Assembly (NCBI GenBank): GCA_028287785.1
Contig: JAQBOZ010000025.1
Coordinates: forward strand, 1-39,753
Length of the DNA stretch: 39,753 bases
Direction: 5' to 3'
Source: Chlorobiota bacterium
Lineage (GTDB): Bacteria > Bacteroidota > Ignavibacteria > OLB7
The notes beneath the pieces were generated by a model. The model did not search any database and was not told the origin of the DNA. It saw nothing but the letters and a program-made list of their open reading frames with translations. A program made the position numbers and the translations under genes. Shown here in pieces: positions 1 to 9,573 of this stretch; positions within the stretch are counted from its first letter, which is position 1, and each line of letters opens with the position of its first letter.

Positions 1-12
1 CCGTGCCGAATG

Positions 13-165
13 GTACGCTCCGATGGAGCTTCAGATCATCGAAGACGTGGCATCGCTACAACCGGTACGCCCCGATGGGGCTGGAAGGAGAGATGCCGAA
101 TGCTCTCGATGAGTCCGAACAGCATGAGCCGTATCCCAACCTGAGTCACTACCCTCAATGGAGGG
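13..165. repeat. Dispersed hairpin-array repeat, copy 1
   Basis: Non-coding sequence with small inverted repeats of the form five-base stem, three-base loop: GCTCC-gat-GGAGC at 17-29 and GCCCC-gat-GGGGC at 69-81, then a weaker CCCTC/GAGGG pair near 152-165. Bases 13 to about 100 align by eye with 33437-33520, with shared blocks around the two hairpins. No open reading frame here resembles a protein. This is probably a REP/BIME-like or other non-autonomous palindromic repeat; the class is not identified. Confidence 0.6.
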
Positions 166-355
166 GGCACGACGAAATAATTCTGGCCTGAATGCCGGAG
201 CATCAACGCACGATGCATCGAAGCCGGAAGCCTGATCTGATGTGAGGGGAATGAACTGTGGGGGAGATGCCCGATGCCGCCGTTGACGTGGTATCACCGA
301 CCCGTCCGCGGCATCAATCGAGTACAAAGATACCATCACGGGCCGGGCTCCGGGA

Positions 356-371
356 GTACATCTTGATGTAC
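356..371. promoter_or_regulatory. 16-bp dyad, site 1
   Basis: GTACATCTTGATGTAC is an inverted repeat with perfect seven-base arms and a TT centre, followed by a C run. The identical 16-mer recurs at 2724-2739 and a related one at 5069-5084. Unlike those, this copy is not clearly upstream of a gene in the window; it lies just past the terminator of the 566-2423 gene. It could be an operator or part of a dispersed repeat. Confidence 0.45.
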
Positions 372-416
372 CCCCATTGGTGCGGCAGTGCGCCGGCGTG
401 GCGGATCGCCATGCAG

Positions 417-452
417 AAAAAAAGCGAGGCGCCCCTTTCGGAAGCGCCTCGC
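417..452 (-). terminator. Rho-independent terminator, minus strand
   Basis: On the minus strand a perfect nine-base stem (GCGAGGCGC / GCGCCTCGC, loop of eleven) is followed directly by seven T residues (A run at 417-423). It lies about 24 bases past the stop codon at 476-478 of the sorting-domain tail remnant and about 115 bases past the stop of the T9SS gene ending at 566. Confidence 0.85.
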
Positions 453-475
453 ATCGGCATCGCGTCGGTTGCGGG

Positions 476-565
476 TTATTTGCCCGGCACAACGATCTTC
501 TTCGTCATGATGAGAACATCCCCGCGAAGCATCCACCGGCACCGGCCGGCGTGTATCGACCGATA
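476..565 (-). pseudogene. Remnant of a T9SS sorting-domain tail, in frame after the upstream stop
   Basis: Directly past the TAA at 566-568 and in the same frame, the minus strand stays open for 29 codons and ends in MTKKIVVPGK followed by TAA at 476-478. That ending matches the final strand of type A sorting domains; the upstream gene ends in TKRMVVIDK. The segment has no start of its own and is too short to fold as a full domain. I read it as the tail of an ancestral or neighbouring sorting domain left behind when the current C-terminus arose. The close spacing to the terminator at 417-452 suggests this was once the real gene end. Readthrough of the TAA is possible but unsupported. Confidence 0.5.
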
Positions 566-2423
566 TTATTTATCGATCACAACCATCCGTTTGGTCTGGG
601 TTTCGGTTCCAAGGTCAACCTTTACCAGATAGCTCCCCGCAGTCCAGCCTTTCGTGCTGACCGTGAGGCTGCCGCTGCGGCTGTCCGACTCACCCTTCTG
701 CGTGTAGACGATGTTGCCGGAAACGTCGCTGATCACCACGGAGAAAGCCTTGCCGCCGCCGAGCGTGTACTGCAACTGGAAGGAGCTGCCGACGGAAACG
801 GGGTTCGGATACGTGGTCGCCAGATCGGCCGTGGCCGCGTTGGCCGGGGCACCGGCAACATTCTCGTGCGATATGCCGGTAAGGGTTCCCGGAGCCGCTC
901 CGCCGTGAATCGATGCCGCATCCTTACGATCGTTCCAGAGCCCCATGTCGCCATTGTCCGACAATGGTTTGTTGACTGCCGCCGGCGGCGGACATGCCAG
1001 GGAGCAGATCAGGAAGCCGGCGCACGCCGGGTTGCAGTTGATGGGCCAGTTGACGCCCCAGGGCTGCACCTTGAAGACGGTCCGAGCCTGAAGCGACGGG
1101 AAATTCGGCGTGGTGCACCGGTCGAACGGACGGACTTCCGGGCAGACGCTGCTGGTGGAACCGAGGTTGTTGGTCTTGAGGAGATACATCTGCTGCGGGT
1201 CCGGCGCGATCAGATTGGGGCTGGCGGTCAGGCCGCAGAGGATATACCCCGGCACGCAGTTGTTCGGGTCCTCGGAGCCGGAATAGAGGCGATCGTTTCC
1301 TGTTCCGCCGTATGCCATCGACCAGACCTTGCCAACGGGGCAGCCCCAGGCGTTCGACATCTCCACCGCGTAGCCATCCTGGGCGCCGAGCGGTCCGGGA
1401 TTCATATTCCCCGTCAGCAGGAGATTGGTATTCCCCAGCTCGCGTACCTGATACATCTCATCGGCCGTCGCGACGCCACCCCCCGTAACATCCGCGATAA
1501 AGAGGCCGCCGCCGGTAAACTTGGCGACGTAGAAATCGGATGGGGCCACGGCCGGATCGGTTGTCGAGCCCACGGCCACGATATTACCGACCTGCGCGGC
1601 GGCCGTCAGCTCGATCACGGAATTGAACTCCTCGTTCCCCTGCGGGCCGCCAACATGCTGCGACCAGAGAATCGGGGAGTTGCATGCGGTATTTGCCGGA
1701 GCAACCTCAAGAATCCACGCCTGGTTGGCACTGCCGAAGCTGGTGGTGCCGCCGCAGAGGATATAATTTCCATTGGTCGGCGACTGCCAGATACCGTGGA
1801 AATAATCATCGCGATCCGGTGTCGGCAATGCCGGAGCGTAGGTGGTCACGCATACGCGATTGCAGTTCTGATCCACCACGGCCAGCAGACCATCGCGAAG
1901 CCCGTTGATATTGGTGACCCAGCCCGCCGCAACGTACAAGCCGCTGTTGGCATCCTGCATGATATCCCATCCAAGGCTGTTGGTTCCCGCCAGTCCCGGA
2001 CCAAACGTGGTAGCGCAGAGGCACTGTCCCTGATTGTTGACCTTGAGAATGAACATCTCCTGGGTTCCGGGAACGTCCGTCCATCCGGTGACGATAAAAT
2101 CACCCGTGGCGGTTTCCTGAATATCATATCCACGCTCGTTGCTGTTACCGAAATCATACCTCATCGCCCAGATGCATCCGCCCGTCAGATTGGATTCCAC
2201 GATATAAACATCATCATTCGGCCCGAAGCTGTTGGTATAACCGACGCTGATATATCCCCCCCCCCGCGTTGAGCAGCTTTACGCCGCCACGCCCGTCCTC
2301 AACATTCGCGGCACCGAACGTTGTCTGAAACTGCTGCGCGCCGGCGGTGGCCGCCATCAGCAGAAAACCGAACGTGAGCAAGGAAATAAACCTTGCCGCG
2401 ATACATCGTTTCGTGTGGTTCAT
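566..2423 (-). CDS. T9SS type A sorting domain protein, frameshifted at a poly-G tract
   Basis: Secreted protein and paralog of the gene at 3031-4782. The start at 2423 (MNHTKRC) has AGGAGAG upstream and opens a signal peptide ending near ATAGAQQ. The mature part carries repeated units of the type D-x-Y-hydrophobic-V-x-x-N-hydrophobic-x-G, suggesting a beta-propeller or similar repeat fold. The C-terminus (about 80 residues, from YPNPVSVG to the end) is a type A sorting domain, which in this phylum directs type IX export and surface attachment. The frame breaks at ten G residues (2256-2265 on the plus strand): the signal peptide is in one frame and the rest in another. Nine or twelve G residues would join them; nine gives 618 residues. 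The paralog reads through the same spot with eight G residues. This may be a phase-variable gene, a recent pseudogene or an assembly error. The uninterrupted downstream frame runs 566-2200. Confidence 0.75.
2256..2265 (-). repeat. Ten-base homopolymer (poly-G on coding strand) at frameshift
   Basis: Ten consecutive C residues on the plus strand fall in the codons for a Gly-rich turn (LNAGGG) about 30 residues after the signal peptide. The paralog has GGA followed by eight G residues at the same place (4616-4623). Long G tracts inside 5' coding regions are classic slipped-strand phase-variation sites, and are also common sequencing errors. Confidence 0.8.
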
Positions 2424-2723
2424 GATACTCTCCTCATGATTGATGATATGTTGGAATGGGCCGGTCCTCTGGAAGATCCGGCAAACAATATTCGCATTAC
2501 ACGCGACCAATTGAATTTCCCGCACAATGAATTCGGCGGTCAGCGGAATTCAAGCGGATCAACAGACGCATTGGAATTACCATCGATAACGGGAAGCGTC
2601 GCAACGCCGCCGTATCGAAATCATCTCACGCGAGCCCGCGAGGAATTATCGGAAGAATGCAAGGGAGTGGGAGAGCATTAAATAATTCTCGTGCAATATA
2701 CATTCATCGCGTTCAGCGAAAGA

Positions 2724-2739
2724 GTACATCTTGATGTAC
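2724..2739. promoter_or_regulatory. 16-bp dyad, site 2
   Basis: GTACATCTTGATGTAC is identical to 356-371, with GTTCAG just before it and a C run after it. Its centre is about 308 bp upstream of the start at 2423. The similar site at 5069-5084 sits about 294 bp upstream of the paralog start at 4782, so position as well as sequence is conserved. It may be an operator or a 5' leader element. Confidence 0.5.
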
Positions 2740-2968
2740 CCCCCCGAAGATTGTTCAAGCGAATTTCGTGGTCACACGAAACAATCATCCGCAGGGCATT
2801 TCAACAGGAAATTCATGGCGCATTTTTCGAGTCTCCGGGATGCGGCGATTTAAAAATCAATCAACACAACCATTTCATCCACACAGATAAATCACCTTCA
2901 ATATCGTTGCGATGATAAACGGATCGAATTGCCGGCGAAGCTGTTCTCCTTCGCCGTAAAAGCAGATA

Positions 2969-2999
2969 TGGGGATACGCCACCGATCGGCACATCCCCA
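2969..2999 (-). terminator. Terminator-like hairpin after the second T9SS gene
   Basis: On the minus strand TGGGGAT pairs with ATCCCCA, with a small inner GCC/GGC pairing. A TTTT run follows a few bases later, and the hairpin at 2933-2956 comes next. It lies about 30 bases past the stop at 3031. The T run is short and offset, so the call is weak. Confidence 0.4.
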
Positions 3000-3030
3000 C
3001 ATGCTGTTCATCTGCTCGAAATCGCAATGG

Positions 3031-4782
3031 CTACCGGTCCATCACCACAATTCGCCTGGTCTGCGTTTCGCTTCCCAGATCCACCTTCACCAGATAGCTC
3101 CCGGAGGCCCATCCACCGGTCTCGATCATCATGCTGCCGTTTCCCAAGCTTGTCTCCTCCCGGCGCTGGCATACGACGTGCCCGGAGACATCGCTCACAA
3201 CCACCGTAACCTCGCGGCCACGGCCGAGCGTGTAGTCCACGCGGAACGCTTCCCCCGCGGCCACGGGATTTGGATAGGTCATCGCGTGGTCGATCGTCCG
3301 TGCGTCATCCGGCGTGGAGCTTGCCGATGAATGATCCGATGGAATCCCGTCGGAGCCATCGGCGAGATTTGCTCCCACCGGGGGCGGGCATGGAGTAAAG
3401 CAGAGGACCCGAACCACATTGCCGGCGATCCGGTTCACATTCCAGAATACCCCCCACGCATGGTTCAGGTTCGCCATGGCCGCCGGCGCGCTCGGGTAGT
3501 TCGGCTGCGTGCAGCGGTCAACCGGCGCGGCCTCGTTACAGCCGCTCTGACCAACGTTGTTGGTCTTTATCTCATACACCTGCTGCGGATCGCCGGCGGG
3601 CATGAACGCGGGGGTTGTGGTAAGCCCGCAGAGGATATAGCCGGGGATGCAGTTCGCCGCATCCTCATCGCCTGAGTAGAGCTGATCAAGCCCGACGCCA
3701 CCGTAGGCCATCGACCAGACTTTCCAGACCGGGCAGCCCCAGGCCGGCACCATCTGCACCACATATCCATCGTCCCCCCCAAGCGGGCCGGGATTGATCC
3801 GCCCGGTCAGCAGGAGATTGCCGGGATTGATGACCTTGCTCTCCCGAACCTGAAACATTTCCTCGGCACCGGCAGCCGTTCCCCCCGAGATATCCGGGGC
3901 AAGAAACCCGCCCGCGCCATTGTATTTCACCGCGTAGAAATCGAGGGGCGCAATGCCGTTTGTGAAGCCCACGGCAACAATGTTGCCGGCCTGTCCGCCT
4001 ACCCCCAGCTCGATCACCGAATGGAAGACCTCATTGGCCGGCCCTCCAATCACGTTGTTCCAGATCGGCACACCGGTGAAAAAGTTGATACGCATCACCA
4101 GCCCCTGGATGCCGCCGCCGAAGCTGGTGGTGCCACCACTTGCAAGAAGATCGCCGTTGGCCGCCTGGAAAAGCCCGTGGAAGAACTCGTTGGCGCCTCC
4201 GCCGGCCGGTGAATACGTCTGCGCGTAAATCAACCCGCCGGCCGGGTTTGTCCTGACGATCAGGGCATCTTGGTTGCCCGCCACGTTGAAGCTCCATCCG
4301 GCGGCGACATAATCGCCATTGGCCGCCTGGAGGATATCCCAGCCCCAATCCTCGTTGACGCCTCCGAATGTCTCCGCCCATATCACCACCCCGGCGGCGT
4401 TGAGCTTGAGAATGAACATGTCATTGTTGCCGCCCGCGTTCGTAACGCCGGTGATGATGAAGTCGCCGGCAACGGTTTCCTGAACATCGTACCCGAAATC
4501 ATCACCACCGAAATTGTAGGCACTTGCCCATATGACGCCGCCGGCAAGATTCGACTTCACCACGTAGACATCCACGTTGTTGCCGAAACTGCTGCTGAAG
4601 CCGGCGCAGATATATCCCCCCCCTCCATTCAGCGGCCTGACCCCGCCCCGCCCGGCCTCGGCGGCCATCCCACCAAACGTCGTCTGAAACCGTTGCGCGC
4701 TCGCGGCGCTGATCATGAAGAGAAAGGTGATGCCCAGAGCGACGAATAATCTCGTCATGCATCGCGTTATGGTGTGATTCAT
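3031..4782 (-). CDS. T9SS type A sorting domain protein (intact paralog)
   Basis: Secreted protein of 583 residues and full-length paralog of the broken gene at 566-2423. I place the start at 4782 (MNHTITRCM), preceded by GGGGAAG at good spacing; a longer in-frame start at 4839 has no signal-peptide character. A signal peptide ends near SAASAQR. Repeats such as DVYVVKSNLAGGVIWA and DMFILKLNAAGVVIWA resemble beta-propeller-type repeat units. The last 85 or so residues (YPNPVAAGEAF to TRRIVVMDR) form a type A sorting domain. The Gly-rich turn after the signal peptide is coded by GGA plus eight G residues, the site where the paralog is frameshifted. Cargo identity is clear from family knowledge; the biological role is unknown. 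No T9SS machinery lies in the window. Confidence 0.85.
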   Translation of the reverse strand: MNHTITRCMTRLFVALGITFLFMISAASAQRFQTTFGGMAAEAGRGGVRPLNGGGGYICAGFSSSFGNNVDVYVVKSNLAGGVIWASAYNFGGDDFGYDVQETVAGDFIITGVTNAGGNNDMFILKLNAAGVVIWAETFGGVNEDWGWDILQAANGDYVAAGWSFNVAGNQDALIVRTNPAGGLIYAQTYSPAGGGANEFFHGLFQAANGDLLASGGTTSFGGGIQGLVMRINFFTGVPIWNNVIGGPANEVFHSVIELGVGGQAGNIVAVGFTNGIAPLDFYAVKYNGAGGFLAPDISGGTAAGAEEMFQVRESKVINPGNLLLTGRINPGPLGGDDGYVVQMVPAWGCPVWKVWSMAYGGVGLDQLYSGDEDAANCIPGYILCGLTTTPAFMPAGDPQQVYEIKTNNVGQSGCNEAAPVDRCTQPNYPSAPAAMANLNHAWGVFWNVNRIAGNVVRVLCFTPCPPPVGANLADGSDGIPSDHSSASSTPDDARTIDHAMTYPNPVAAGEAFRVDYTLGRGREVTVVVSDVSGHVVCQRREETSLGNGSMMIETGGWASGSYLVKVDLGSETQTRRIVVMDR

Positions 4783-5068
4783 TTGCTTCCCCATTGTTAT
4801 GATAGTGGATATTCCGACCCCCGGTGTTTGCTGGGACATACGCGGCCATCAGAGTCTCCGCCATGTCCCGGCGGCGGAAGCCTGATCGGCCGGCGCATAT
4901 GCGAACCCGGACCTGTGTATGCTCGACAGCGGATAACCGGCCCCTGGGCATCGTCCGAATGGCGTTCGTGGTGCCGACGAACGCAACGCGGCGGCAGGGG
5001 TATTTCGGGAGGAAATCAGGGGGGAGTGGAAGCGGAGGAAAGATACCGATCGAGATCGTCCGTTCAGA

Positions 5069-5084
5069 GTACATCATCGTGTAC
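5069..5084. promoter_or_regulatory. 16-bp dyad, site 3
   Basis: GTACATCATCGTGTAC keeps the outer arms GTACA/TGTAC of sites 1 and 2 but differs in the centre. It shares the preceding GTTCAG with site 2 and is also followed by a C run. Its centre is about 294 bp upstream of the start at 4782. Confidence 0.45.
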
Positions 5085-5489
5085 CCCGTCCCTCCGGGGG
5101 GATATCATGTTTCGAGGATTGAAATGAGGATACGGGGGAACGCGGGCGGAGTCGCGGCGGCGGGAGTGGTTTCGGAGGGATATTGTGTGGTCGGCGGGGA
5201 ATTGCCAGCGGAATCGGGCAAATCGTGAAAATGTTCACGAAATTTTACAGTGACTGGGGTCGCTTTTCCATCGGCATGAGCGAAGGCTTTCGCCGGTTGC
5301 AGGGACGGGAGGGAGTTGCCGGGGGGCTTCATGATGGCCGCTGCTAACCGATCCCGATATAATTCCGTTATATTAATCCCCCCTTCCCCCGAATTTCCGT
5401 GCTCATCCATACTATTGGCGGCCAACGGCGGCAAGCTGTTTAAATTTTGATAAATTCGGGCCCTCGCGATCCAAATCTCCTCTGGAAAC

Positions 5490-5505
5490 GTACATCATCC
5501 ATTAC
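5490..5505. promoter_or_regulatory. Degenerate copy of the dyad element, site 4
   Basis: GTACATCATCCATTAC matches site 3 over its first ten bases and its last three. Both are followed by related sequence (GTCCCTCCGGGG versus GTCCCTTCGGGA), so the shared block extends beyond the dyad. It lies about 340 bp upstream of the start at 5841. The inverted symmetry is largely lost. Confidence 0.3.
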
Positions 5506-5790
5506 CTTGTCCCTTCGGGAGCCCTGAATGGCGACGGCCTGGCGGAGGCAATCCTCACCGGCTTCGGACAATCACGGCGGACCGAAGATTGATGGCCGGA
5601 TATGGCGACATTTTCCACCGGAAACACACATCGTCTCCATGGATATGGAGCGCCGTTCCCTTACGAATGAAGCGCGTATGAATTGCACGTATGAGCTTGT
5701 AAGCACGGCGATAAACAACTAAGTTTGGCGCGAATTTATTCGATACGGTCGACTCACTGAGGTTACCCCCCACGGCTGATGTGATGAACG

Positions 5791-5797
5791 TACCTTG
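5791..5797 (+). promoter_or_regulatory. Possible -7 element for the giant repeat protein
   Basis: TACCTTG resembles the Bacteroidota -7 consensus TAnnTTTG and lies 44 bp before the start at 5841. I did not find a matching TTTG -33 element, so this rests on position and partial consensus only. Confidence 0.25.
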
Positions 5798-5840
5798 CAT
5801 ACTATCCTGTCTTTACATAATAACCTAGGAGTGATTGGAC

Positions 5841-8800
5841 ATGAATCGATCGCGTACTATGCTGGCCTTGCTGGCGTTCATGGCGGCAGCCCCCGTCATG
5901 GCACAGATTCCGCAGACGATAAGCTATCAAGGCTTCGTCCGGGATCAGTCAGGCCAGGAGGTCACGGGTAACGTCAACATCACCGTCAAGATCTACGAGA
6001 CCGCCACGGGCGGCACGGCTATCTGGTCGGAGACGCACAACGCCGTCCGTTTTGACAAAGGCCTCTTCAATATCATCCTCGGCGAAGCGCAGCCCACGCC
6101 ATCCCCGCTGAACCTTGCATTCGACAAGACCTATTATATAGGATTGACGATTGGAGCAGGCGGCAACGAGCTGAGCCCGCGCACGGAGCTTGCCTCCTCG
6201 CCATACGCTCTGAACGCCCGCAAGGTTGTTGACTCCGCAATCGTGACCAACTCCATCGCCAACGGCGCGGTCACCAATCCGAAGATTGCCGATGGAACGA
6301 TCACGGCCGGCAAGATCAAGAGCGGCGAGGTTGTCACCAGCATCAACGGCCTGCACGACAAGGTTGTGCTGAAGGCCGGCGCGAACATCGCGATCACATC
6401 GAGCAATGACTCGATCATGATTGCCGGAACTGGTTCGGGCGCGGGGAACATCAGCCGTATCAGCGTTGGACCGGGCCTTACCGGCGGCGGCGACAGCGGC
6501 AATGTCATCGTCCGGATCGGCACCGAGTCGATCCTCAACACCATGCTCGGCTATCACTCGGTGACCGAAGCGAAGATCGACGACAACTCGATCATCACCC
6601 GCACCATCGCCGACGCGGCGGTAACGCTGAGCAAGCTCAATATCGGCGGAGCGCTTGTCGGCCAGGCTATCTCCTACTTCGGCGGCGGCGTCCCGGTCTG
6701 GGGCTATCCGTACGCAAGCCAGCTTATTGTTCCCTTCTCGCAGACCGCGAACACCACCCCGACGATGTTCGCGCTGACGAACACCGGAACCGGCTCGGTG
6801 GCAACCTTCACGATCAACAACGCGGCCAGCAGCTCCAACGCGATGATCGGAACCACGAATGGCACCGGCTCGGGCGTTCAGGGTGTGCATAGCGCCTCCA
6901 CCGGCACGGCGGCCGGCGTTCGTGGCGAGACCAACTCGCAGGATGCCAACTCGGCCGGCGTGATCGGCATAATCAACTCGACAACTCCGGGCGGCTTCTC
7001 CGCGGGTGTGCGCGGCACCAACAACGGCACCGGCGGCCTGGGCATCGGTGTCTATGGCTCGCAGGCCGGTAGCGGCTGGGGCGTTTACGGCACCACGCCA
7101 AGCGGCATCGGTGTTCATGGAAACAGCACCACCGGCTTCGGTCTGTATGGTCTCTCCACCAGCGGCACGGCCGTCTACGGTCTGAGCACCAACGGTGAGT
7201 CGGGCCGGTTCGAAAACACGAACAACGCCAACTCCAGCAACACGCTGACCGCCAGCACCAACGGCACGGGGAATGCCTTTATCGCCGCGAACAGCGGCAC
7301 CAGCGGCAACGCGGGCAACTTTACGATCAACAACGCCGCAAACGCCAGTAACGCGGTCAACGTCACGACCAACGGCACCGGCGCGGCTGTCAATGCCGTC
7401 AACACCGGCACCGGCATCGGCGGCAGCTTTGCGATCAACAACGCGACCAACGCGGCGAACGCGCTTAACGTTACCACGAACGGCACCGGCAATGGCGCCA
7501 GCGTCGTGATCGGCAACGCGACCAACGCCAACAACGCAGTCACGGCAAACACAAACGGAACCGGACGCGCCGGGCTCTTCACGGTCACCAACGCGGCAAA
7601 TACCACCAACGCTCTTGAGGTAACGACCACCGGCACCGGACGCGCCGTCCTTGGCCGTCGCGGAGCGGGAAGCGGCGTCTCCCTTGGTCAGACCGAGGCG
7701 ATTCGCGGCGATAACACCGACGGACCCGGCCTGGCCGGCACGGCGAACACCGCGGTCGGTGTCTACGGTACCAGCGTAACCACCCACGGCATCTGGGGTG
7801 TTGGCACGGTTGCCAACGCGGCGGGCGTCGAGGGGCGTAACGACGTGGTGAACGGCTTCGGCGTCGAGGGCGTCAGCCTTGGCGGCGGCATCGGCGTTCA
7901 TGGCACCAGCCAGACCGGCAATGCCAGCCAGTTCGACATCACCAACGCGGCCAGCACGGCGGACGCGGTTCGCGCCACCCAGAACGGCCTGGGACGCGGC
8001 GTCTACTCCACCATCAACAACGCATCCAACATCGTGGCGGCGGTTCGTGGTGAGACCAACGGCGGCGGCTACGGCATCTTCGGTCAGGCGACCGGCAACG
8101 GCAACGCAGGCTTCTTCCAGGTCAGCAACCCGGCCAGCACCAGCTCCACGGTCAACGTGACGACCAACGGCATCGGCAGCGGCATCACGGTGCAGCTTAC
8201 CAACGCCTCCAACGGAGCGCGTGGCATCGATGTCCTCCAGGCTGGCGTTGGACCGGGCGTCTTCGCGACCTCGGCCGGCGGCAATGCAGTGTGGGGTATC
8301 ACCAGCTCGATCAGCGCAGCGGGCGTGATCGGCGACAACACCTTCGGCGAAGCGGTTGTGGGCCGTAACCGCGGCGGCAACGGCGTGGGTGCCGTTGTGG
8401 GACGTAACGACAGCTCGGGCTACGGTGTCCGCGGCTTCAACACGAAGGATGGTATCGGCGTCCTCGGTCAGGCCGGCATCAGCGGCGGCACGGGCGTCGG
8501 CGGCCGGTTCGAGAACGTCAACGCCGCCAACGGCAACGACGCTATCCAGGGGGCCACGAACGGCACCGGCTGGGCAGCCAACCTCACCAACGCGAACAAC
8601 AGCAGCGCTTCCCGCGCTCTGCGTGTCTCCACGACCGCCGGTCAGGGTGGCAACGCGGTCACGGTGGCAAACGGTACGGTGGCAATGTCCTACCAGCACC
8701 CATATGCCTCGAACACGGTTGTCGATGATGCCTACCTGGTGGTGACCACCGCCGGTAACGTCACCATCCCGACCGGTCCTCCGCTCGTCGATGGCGCAAC

Positions 8801-9048: not shown

Positions 9049-9573
9049 ATGAAACGAATGATCTTAGGACTTGCGCTTGTGGCTGCGGCATTCATCTCCG
9101 GTTCCCGGGCTGATGCTCAGTTCACGCTGGTTAGAAGCGTGGTGGGGAACGGCGGCCAGCCGATGTCCAACGCCAGCTTTGTCATGGACGGCACGGTGGG
9201 CCAGGCCACGATCGGCTTCGTGAGCAACGCCAGCTTCTCCGGAAGCATCGGCTTCTGGTTCACGCCAACCAATGTCGGCGGTGTCGAGGATGCCGTTGCT
9301 CTTACGGGCGGCAATCGTCTGGAGCAGAATTTCCCGAACCCGTTCCGGGGAACCACCCGGATCAAGTTCACCCTGGTACAGCCCGCCGATGTGACCCTCA
9401 AGGTGTATAACACCGCCGGTGAGGAGATCGCGACGATCGTATCGGGAGAGGAGATGGAAGCCGGTGATCACGAGGTGCTCTTCTCGAAGCATGATCTCGC
9501 CAGCGGCAACTACCTCTGCCAGCTTCAGATCGGCAAGTACACGCTTCAGCGTCAGATGCTCGCCATCAAGTAA
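9049..9573 (+). CDS. Small T9SS type A sorting domain protein
   Basis: A 174-residue secreted protein. The start at 9049 follows AAGGAGAG; a signal peptide ends near SRADAQ (residues 1-24). A short domain (about 25-75) has the pattern VVGNGG, a GTVGQATIG motif and GSIGFWF, seen before sorting domains in other proteins of this phylum. Residues about 92-174 (LEQNFPNPFRG to QRQMLAIK) are a clear type A sorting domain with the NFPNPF motif. The protein is little more than signal peptide, small domain and sorting tail, so it may be a small surface anchor or partner. It follows the giant repeat protein, which has no sorting domain; a link between them is speculation. A TATATTG element at 9022-9028 could be its own -7 box. 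Confidence 0.85.
   Translation: MKRMILGLALVAAAFISGSRADAQFTLVRSVVGNGGQPMSNASFVMDGTVGQATIGFVSNASFSGSIGFWFTPTNVGGVEDAVALTGGNRLEQNFPNPFRGTTRIKFTLVQPADVTLKVYNTAGEEIATIVSGEEMEAGDHEVLFSKHDLASGNYLCQLQIGKYTLQRQMLAIK

Follow-up and report, generated by a model that had tools for sequence, protein, structure and literature searches.

Genes A and B and their surroundings

The window, by which we mean the whole 39,753-nucleotide stretch of DNA that was analyzed, is contig C7 in its entirety and comes from a genome (G000) of 4.75 Mb in 37 contigs, 95% complete, with a G+C content of 61%, at which long runs of G arise from glycine codons by chance. Genes A (566-2423) and B (3031-4782) lie in tandem, both on the minus strand, each with a terminator-like hairpin downstream (Table 1), and a search of window positions 1-6000 gave no Rfam matches. 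Gene B comprises a signal peptide, propeller-like repeats and a T9SS type A sorting domain. At the end of the gene A body, TIGR04183 scores 41.2 bits (cut-off 23) and the sorting-domain family PF18962 33.4 bits (cut-off 27), so that gene A also ends in a T9SS type A sorting domain, as a sequence-only reading of this DNA had claimed for its mature part. Given this tail, the gene A product would act at the cell surface or in the extracellular space. A search that scored 150 of 244 candidates counted no fewer than 150 T9SS type A sorting domains over the curated cut-off across the analyzed genome, a very large cargo set, with several full-length members of the A/B family among them.

Sequence search and fold comparison both indicate a β-propeller like that of CylK for this family, which also gives weak matches to delta-60 and DUF5122. 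The AlphaFold model of paralog B, which among solved structures best matches the CylK propeller, has a low overall confidence (pLDDT 55.5) and is better over approximately residues 90-250, and the fold is therefore supported only for that part of the protein. Gene A resembles T9SS type A β-propeller (delta-60/SBBP-like) cargo in its signal peptide, propeller-like repeats and TIGR04183/PF18962 tail, and differs from it in that the signal peptide is out of frame with the body.

The palindrome GTACATCNNGATGTAC lies at window positions 356-371 and upstream of gene A, with a degenerate copy upstream of gene B (Table 1). Exact copies occur elsewhere in the analyzed genome (C2:128027 and C16:37832) and in the genome of a sister species (at C44:71738 and at C37:22861, the latter 192 bp upstream of a gene carrying a T9SS-like tail), and a search of genomes G003 and G005 gave no exact copies. 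The palindrome is a candidate operator.

Table 1. Features at the gene A and gene B locus (window coordinates)
Feature	Position	Strand	Remarks
Terminator-like hairpin, T7 tail	424..452	-	Downstream of gene A
Gene A body	569..2263	-	β-propeller-like domain and T9SS type A sorting domain; open; signal peptide out of frame
G10 tract (C10 on + strand)	2256..2265	-	Gly-Gly-Gly-Tyr-Ile codons; one base above frame in four-homolog alignment
Gene A 5' part	2266..2423	-	Start codon, signal peptide and ~20 first mature residues; in the other frame
Palindrome GTACATCTTGATGTAC	2724..2739	.	~300 bp upstream of gene A start; candidate regulatory site
Terminator-like hairpin	2966..3002	-	Downstream of gene B
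Gene B	3034..4782	-	Intact paralog, 583 aa; in-frame G8 run at the same codons
Degenerate palindrome copy	5069..5084	.	~290 bp upstream of gene B start; two mismatches

One extra base in the G tract of gene A

The frame that opens at ATG 2423 encodes MNHTKRC...AGAQQFQTTFG...KLLN, with a signal-like peptide judged by eye, and reaches a stop 16 codons past the tract to give a 69-residue product. Positions 2253-2423 are homologous to residues 1-57 of P0002. The body (569-2263) runs for 565 codons with zero stops, in a frame to which the signal peptide of gene A does not connect, whereas that of paralog B is in frame with the rest of its protein. In a DNA alignment of four homologs, gene A carries exactly one extra base relative to the other three, and this base lies within the tract. 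A tract of nine G would restore a 618-residue protein that aligns gap-free with the homologs, and one of twelve would give 619 residues. The sequence and the alignment thus agree with the earlier claims that signal peptide and body are in different frames, parted at ten G residues, and that nine or twelve would rejoin them.

The tract encodes part of a Gly-Gly-Gly-Tyr-Ile motif that is invariant in all four homologs and that, in the paralog B model, falls just before and at the start of the second predicted strand, a region of moderate confidence. Gene B writes this region as AAT GGA GGG GGG GGA TAT, which is the GGA followed by eight G that had been reported for the intact paralog. The two orthologs in the sister species (G001) use GGC GGC GGA or GGC GGC GGT GGA, where the longest G run is 3; retention of the tract in related species, a feature that supports but does not strictly define phase variation, is therefore absent from G001. 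In the genes sampled, GGG makes up 28% of glycine codons. One other genome of the genus was available for comparison, a MAG listed under the name Bacteroidetes bacterium SZAS-92. Searching genome contigs with the gene A body gave no match from the same species or a close relative, and the four-homolog alignment used as a query against the same contigs recovered only the two G001 genes. Viral contigs held no relatives of gene A, and a DNA search of genomes of the family found none that was conspecific.

The differences private to gene A are distributed over the three codon positions (0.18/0.14/0.40) much as they are in gene B (0.13/0.13/0.33) and in the sister-species gene on C37 (0.15/0.13/0.31). 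This homolog-like pattern, together with a body that is open over its whole length, bears out the earlier argument that the gene has no other lesions and has not undergone long decay; apart from the tract, gene A is intact and constrained, as would be expected of a phase-variable gene. An even chance of a stop arising in the body would need ∼23 neutral substitutions (1.4% divergence). Normal constraint without a second lesion implies that the break is recent, that it is unreal, or that gene A is sometimes expressed.

Homopolymers across the genome

The behavior of homopolymers elsewhere in the assembly was assessed with a hexamer coding model trained on the analyzed genome, requiring coding signal on both sides of the run and on one strand. 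Among G/C runs of at least 9 bases the frame is kept in 19 of 20, the exception being the tract in the window, and it is kept at all 45 G/C runs of 7-8 bases and all 12 A/T runs of at least 6; at random sites the test returned 2318 cases of a kept frame and 5 of a broken one. Runs near gene ends, read by eye, are also frame-consistent. Since the frame is kept at these other runs, homopolymers are not a general weakness of the assembly. Runs of at least 9 bases occur in genes of all kinds, and the family match spans the in-frame tract in mrp/apbC, in prfC, in an acyltransferase and in a relative of futalosine hydrolase, the last with a family match below the curated cut-off. Ribosomal protein S17 (L070 2894-3292) has an N-terminal extension of ∼54 residues that holds an in-frame G11 tract; this tract lies outside the family match and is thus a weaker case of frame keeping. 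One end of contig C3 (C3:50769-50798; L073 2970-2999) reads G13, TGTAAA and C11 and resembles a poly-G read artifact.

In the survey for frame breaks every run of at least 9 bases was checked, and other types of break were examined in some cargo genes. Two candidates for further broken or switching cargo were rejected: the short tail gene at 9049-9573, which has its own signal peptide, and a tail-only fragment at C11:148410, upstream of which no coding signal was found in any frame. The latter (L159 1501-1728; C11:148410-148637) is a 102-codon frame with a T9SS sorting domain and is probably a decayed cargo remnant.

To place the number of runs in context, expectations were derived by shuffling synonymous codons within 289 genes predicted on 400 kb and scaling the result to the genome. 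The whole genome holds 40 G/C runs of at least 9 bases against ∼66 expected in coding DNA, and 13 of at least 10 against ∼21. The 400-kb gene sample that was shuffled itself contains zero runs of at least 9, and with the 40 observed against ∼66 this means that long runs are, if anything, under-represented. The over-representation of repeats that would support, without strictly defining, phase variation is thus seen neither genome-wide nor in surface genes, and long G runs are no special device of this genome. Within the window, a nine-base C/G run is likewise unremarkable, with two overlapping occurrences against a mean of 1.23 under dinucleotide shuffling.

Tracts of at least 9 bases show no 5' enrichment: the first 60 codons hold 6 of 30, with 5.1 expected. 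For coding tracts of at least 10 bases the figures are 5 of 8 against 2.5 expected (P = 0.04, uncorrected), which weakly suggests that the placement of the longest tracts is not random and favors gene 5' ends. Of these five, four are not that of gene A, and two of the four closely follow probable signal peptides and are in frame. In other genes for secreted proteins, G/C tracts of 9-10 bases that keep frame were noted inside or directly after probable signal peptides, at L097 2039-2047, L080 3026-3035 and L075 3070-3079.

Origin and meaning of the tenth G

Four readings of the tenth G were weighed, and the probabilities that we give them are judgments rather than computed values. The one toward which we lean, tentatively and at a little short of an even chance, is that gene A is a dispensable cargo gene in which a tract arisen by chance slipped once, recently, by +1, and that it holds no evolved switch. 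Codon choice would have written the motif as GCG GGG GGG GGA, creating a nine-G run, to which one G would have been added in the sequenced population, most likely by replication slippage. Translation would then leave the frame at ∼53 codons and end in a secreted peptide of 69 residues, and the mature A protein with its sorting domain would not be made. The slip would be single as well as recent and could revert through the same slippage, and nothing indicates that the tract was made or is maintained by selection as a switch. On this reading the tenth G would be real, and the presence of related cargo genes (B and further paralogs) would make the loss of gene A tolerable. Gene A is like the singleton frameshift genes of the GeneTack classification (PMC3711429) in that a single frame break, located at a homopolymer, is seen in one genome while the homologs elsewhere are intact, and we find no important difference from them.

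One counterpoint to a recent slip is that a consensus error would look identical. That the tenth G is an error of consensus or assembly, the population having nine G and an intact gene A, we regard as the next most plausible reading, albeit a rather unlikely one. A singleton frameshift that homology confirms should in most cases be a sequencing error or a recent indel (PMC3711429), and homopolymers of 10 or more bases are still difficult for some long-read platforms (PMC9262707). The lack of relaxation in the gene A body and the artifact-like end of contig C3 point in the same direction. Against an error stand the frames kept at the other coding tracts of at least 9 bases, at the shorter G/C runs and at the A/T runs.

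A genuine switch, in which slippage between nine G (on) and ten G (off) in the gene of a surface T9SS protein is kept by selection, seems to us improbable, even with a tract length, location and product that suit a contingency gene. The tract is a repeat of sufficient length within a reading frame: the cut-off used for phase-variable tracts in Campylobacter is 7 or more G/C, and a phase-variable species shows variation in poly-G tracts of at least 8 bases (PMC6321876), so that the gene A tract is long enough to switch. Its location 53 codons from the start, the secreted product, the open and constrained body, the G8 run at the same codons of paralog B and the lean of tracts of at least 10 bases toward 5' ends are also in keeping with switching. 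Gene A further shares with the poly-G contingency genes of Campylobacter, Neisseria and Helicobacter a G run within the reading frame near the 5' end, a surface or secreted product and a frame change of one base. In those bacteria, however, the tracts are many and concentrated in surface genes and their variation has been shown, whereas here a single frame-broken tract was found genome-wide, in the sequence of one genome, with tract numbers at chance level and no tract in either sister-species ortholog. In addition, mutS and mutL are intact in the analyzed genome. Mismatch repair reduces slippage without ruling it out. The proposal of an evolved phase-variation device is thus unsupported, given the position of the tract in codons of an invariant Gly-rich motif, the tractless sister species, G runs no more frequent than in codon shuffles, the occurrence of tracts of at least 9 bases in housekeeping genes, and mismatch repair.

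It is very improbable that ten G are fixed and that slippage of RNA polymerase or the ribosome corrects the frame in some molecules, as the known bacterial cases of such rescue are mostly at A/T runs; rescue would account for the constraint on the gene A body, but a recent event accounts for it equally well. Slippage by which bacteria tolerate homopolymers that are out of frame has been described (PMC3017870 and PMC5009743).

Were switching true, gene A would be a T9SS cargo gene subject to slipped-strand phase variation, and our literature search on the T9SS and slipped-strand phase variation found no paper that links the two, which itself weighs against a switch. A recent slip in a dispensable cargo gene remains the reading that we prefer, and the case of gene A carries a caution, namely that one broken frame at a chance G run needs reads before being called a switch.
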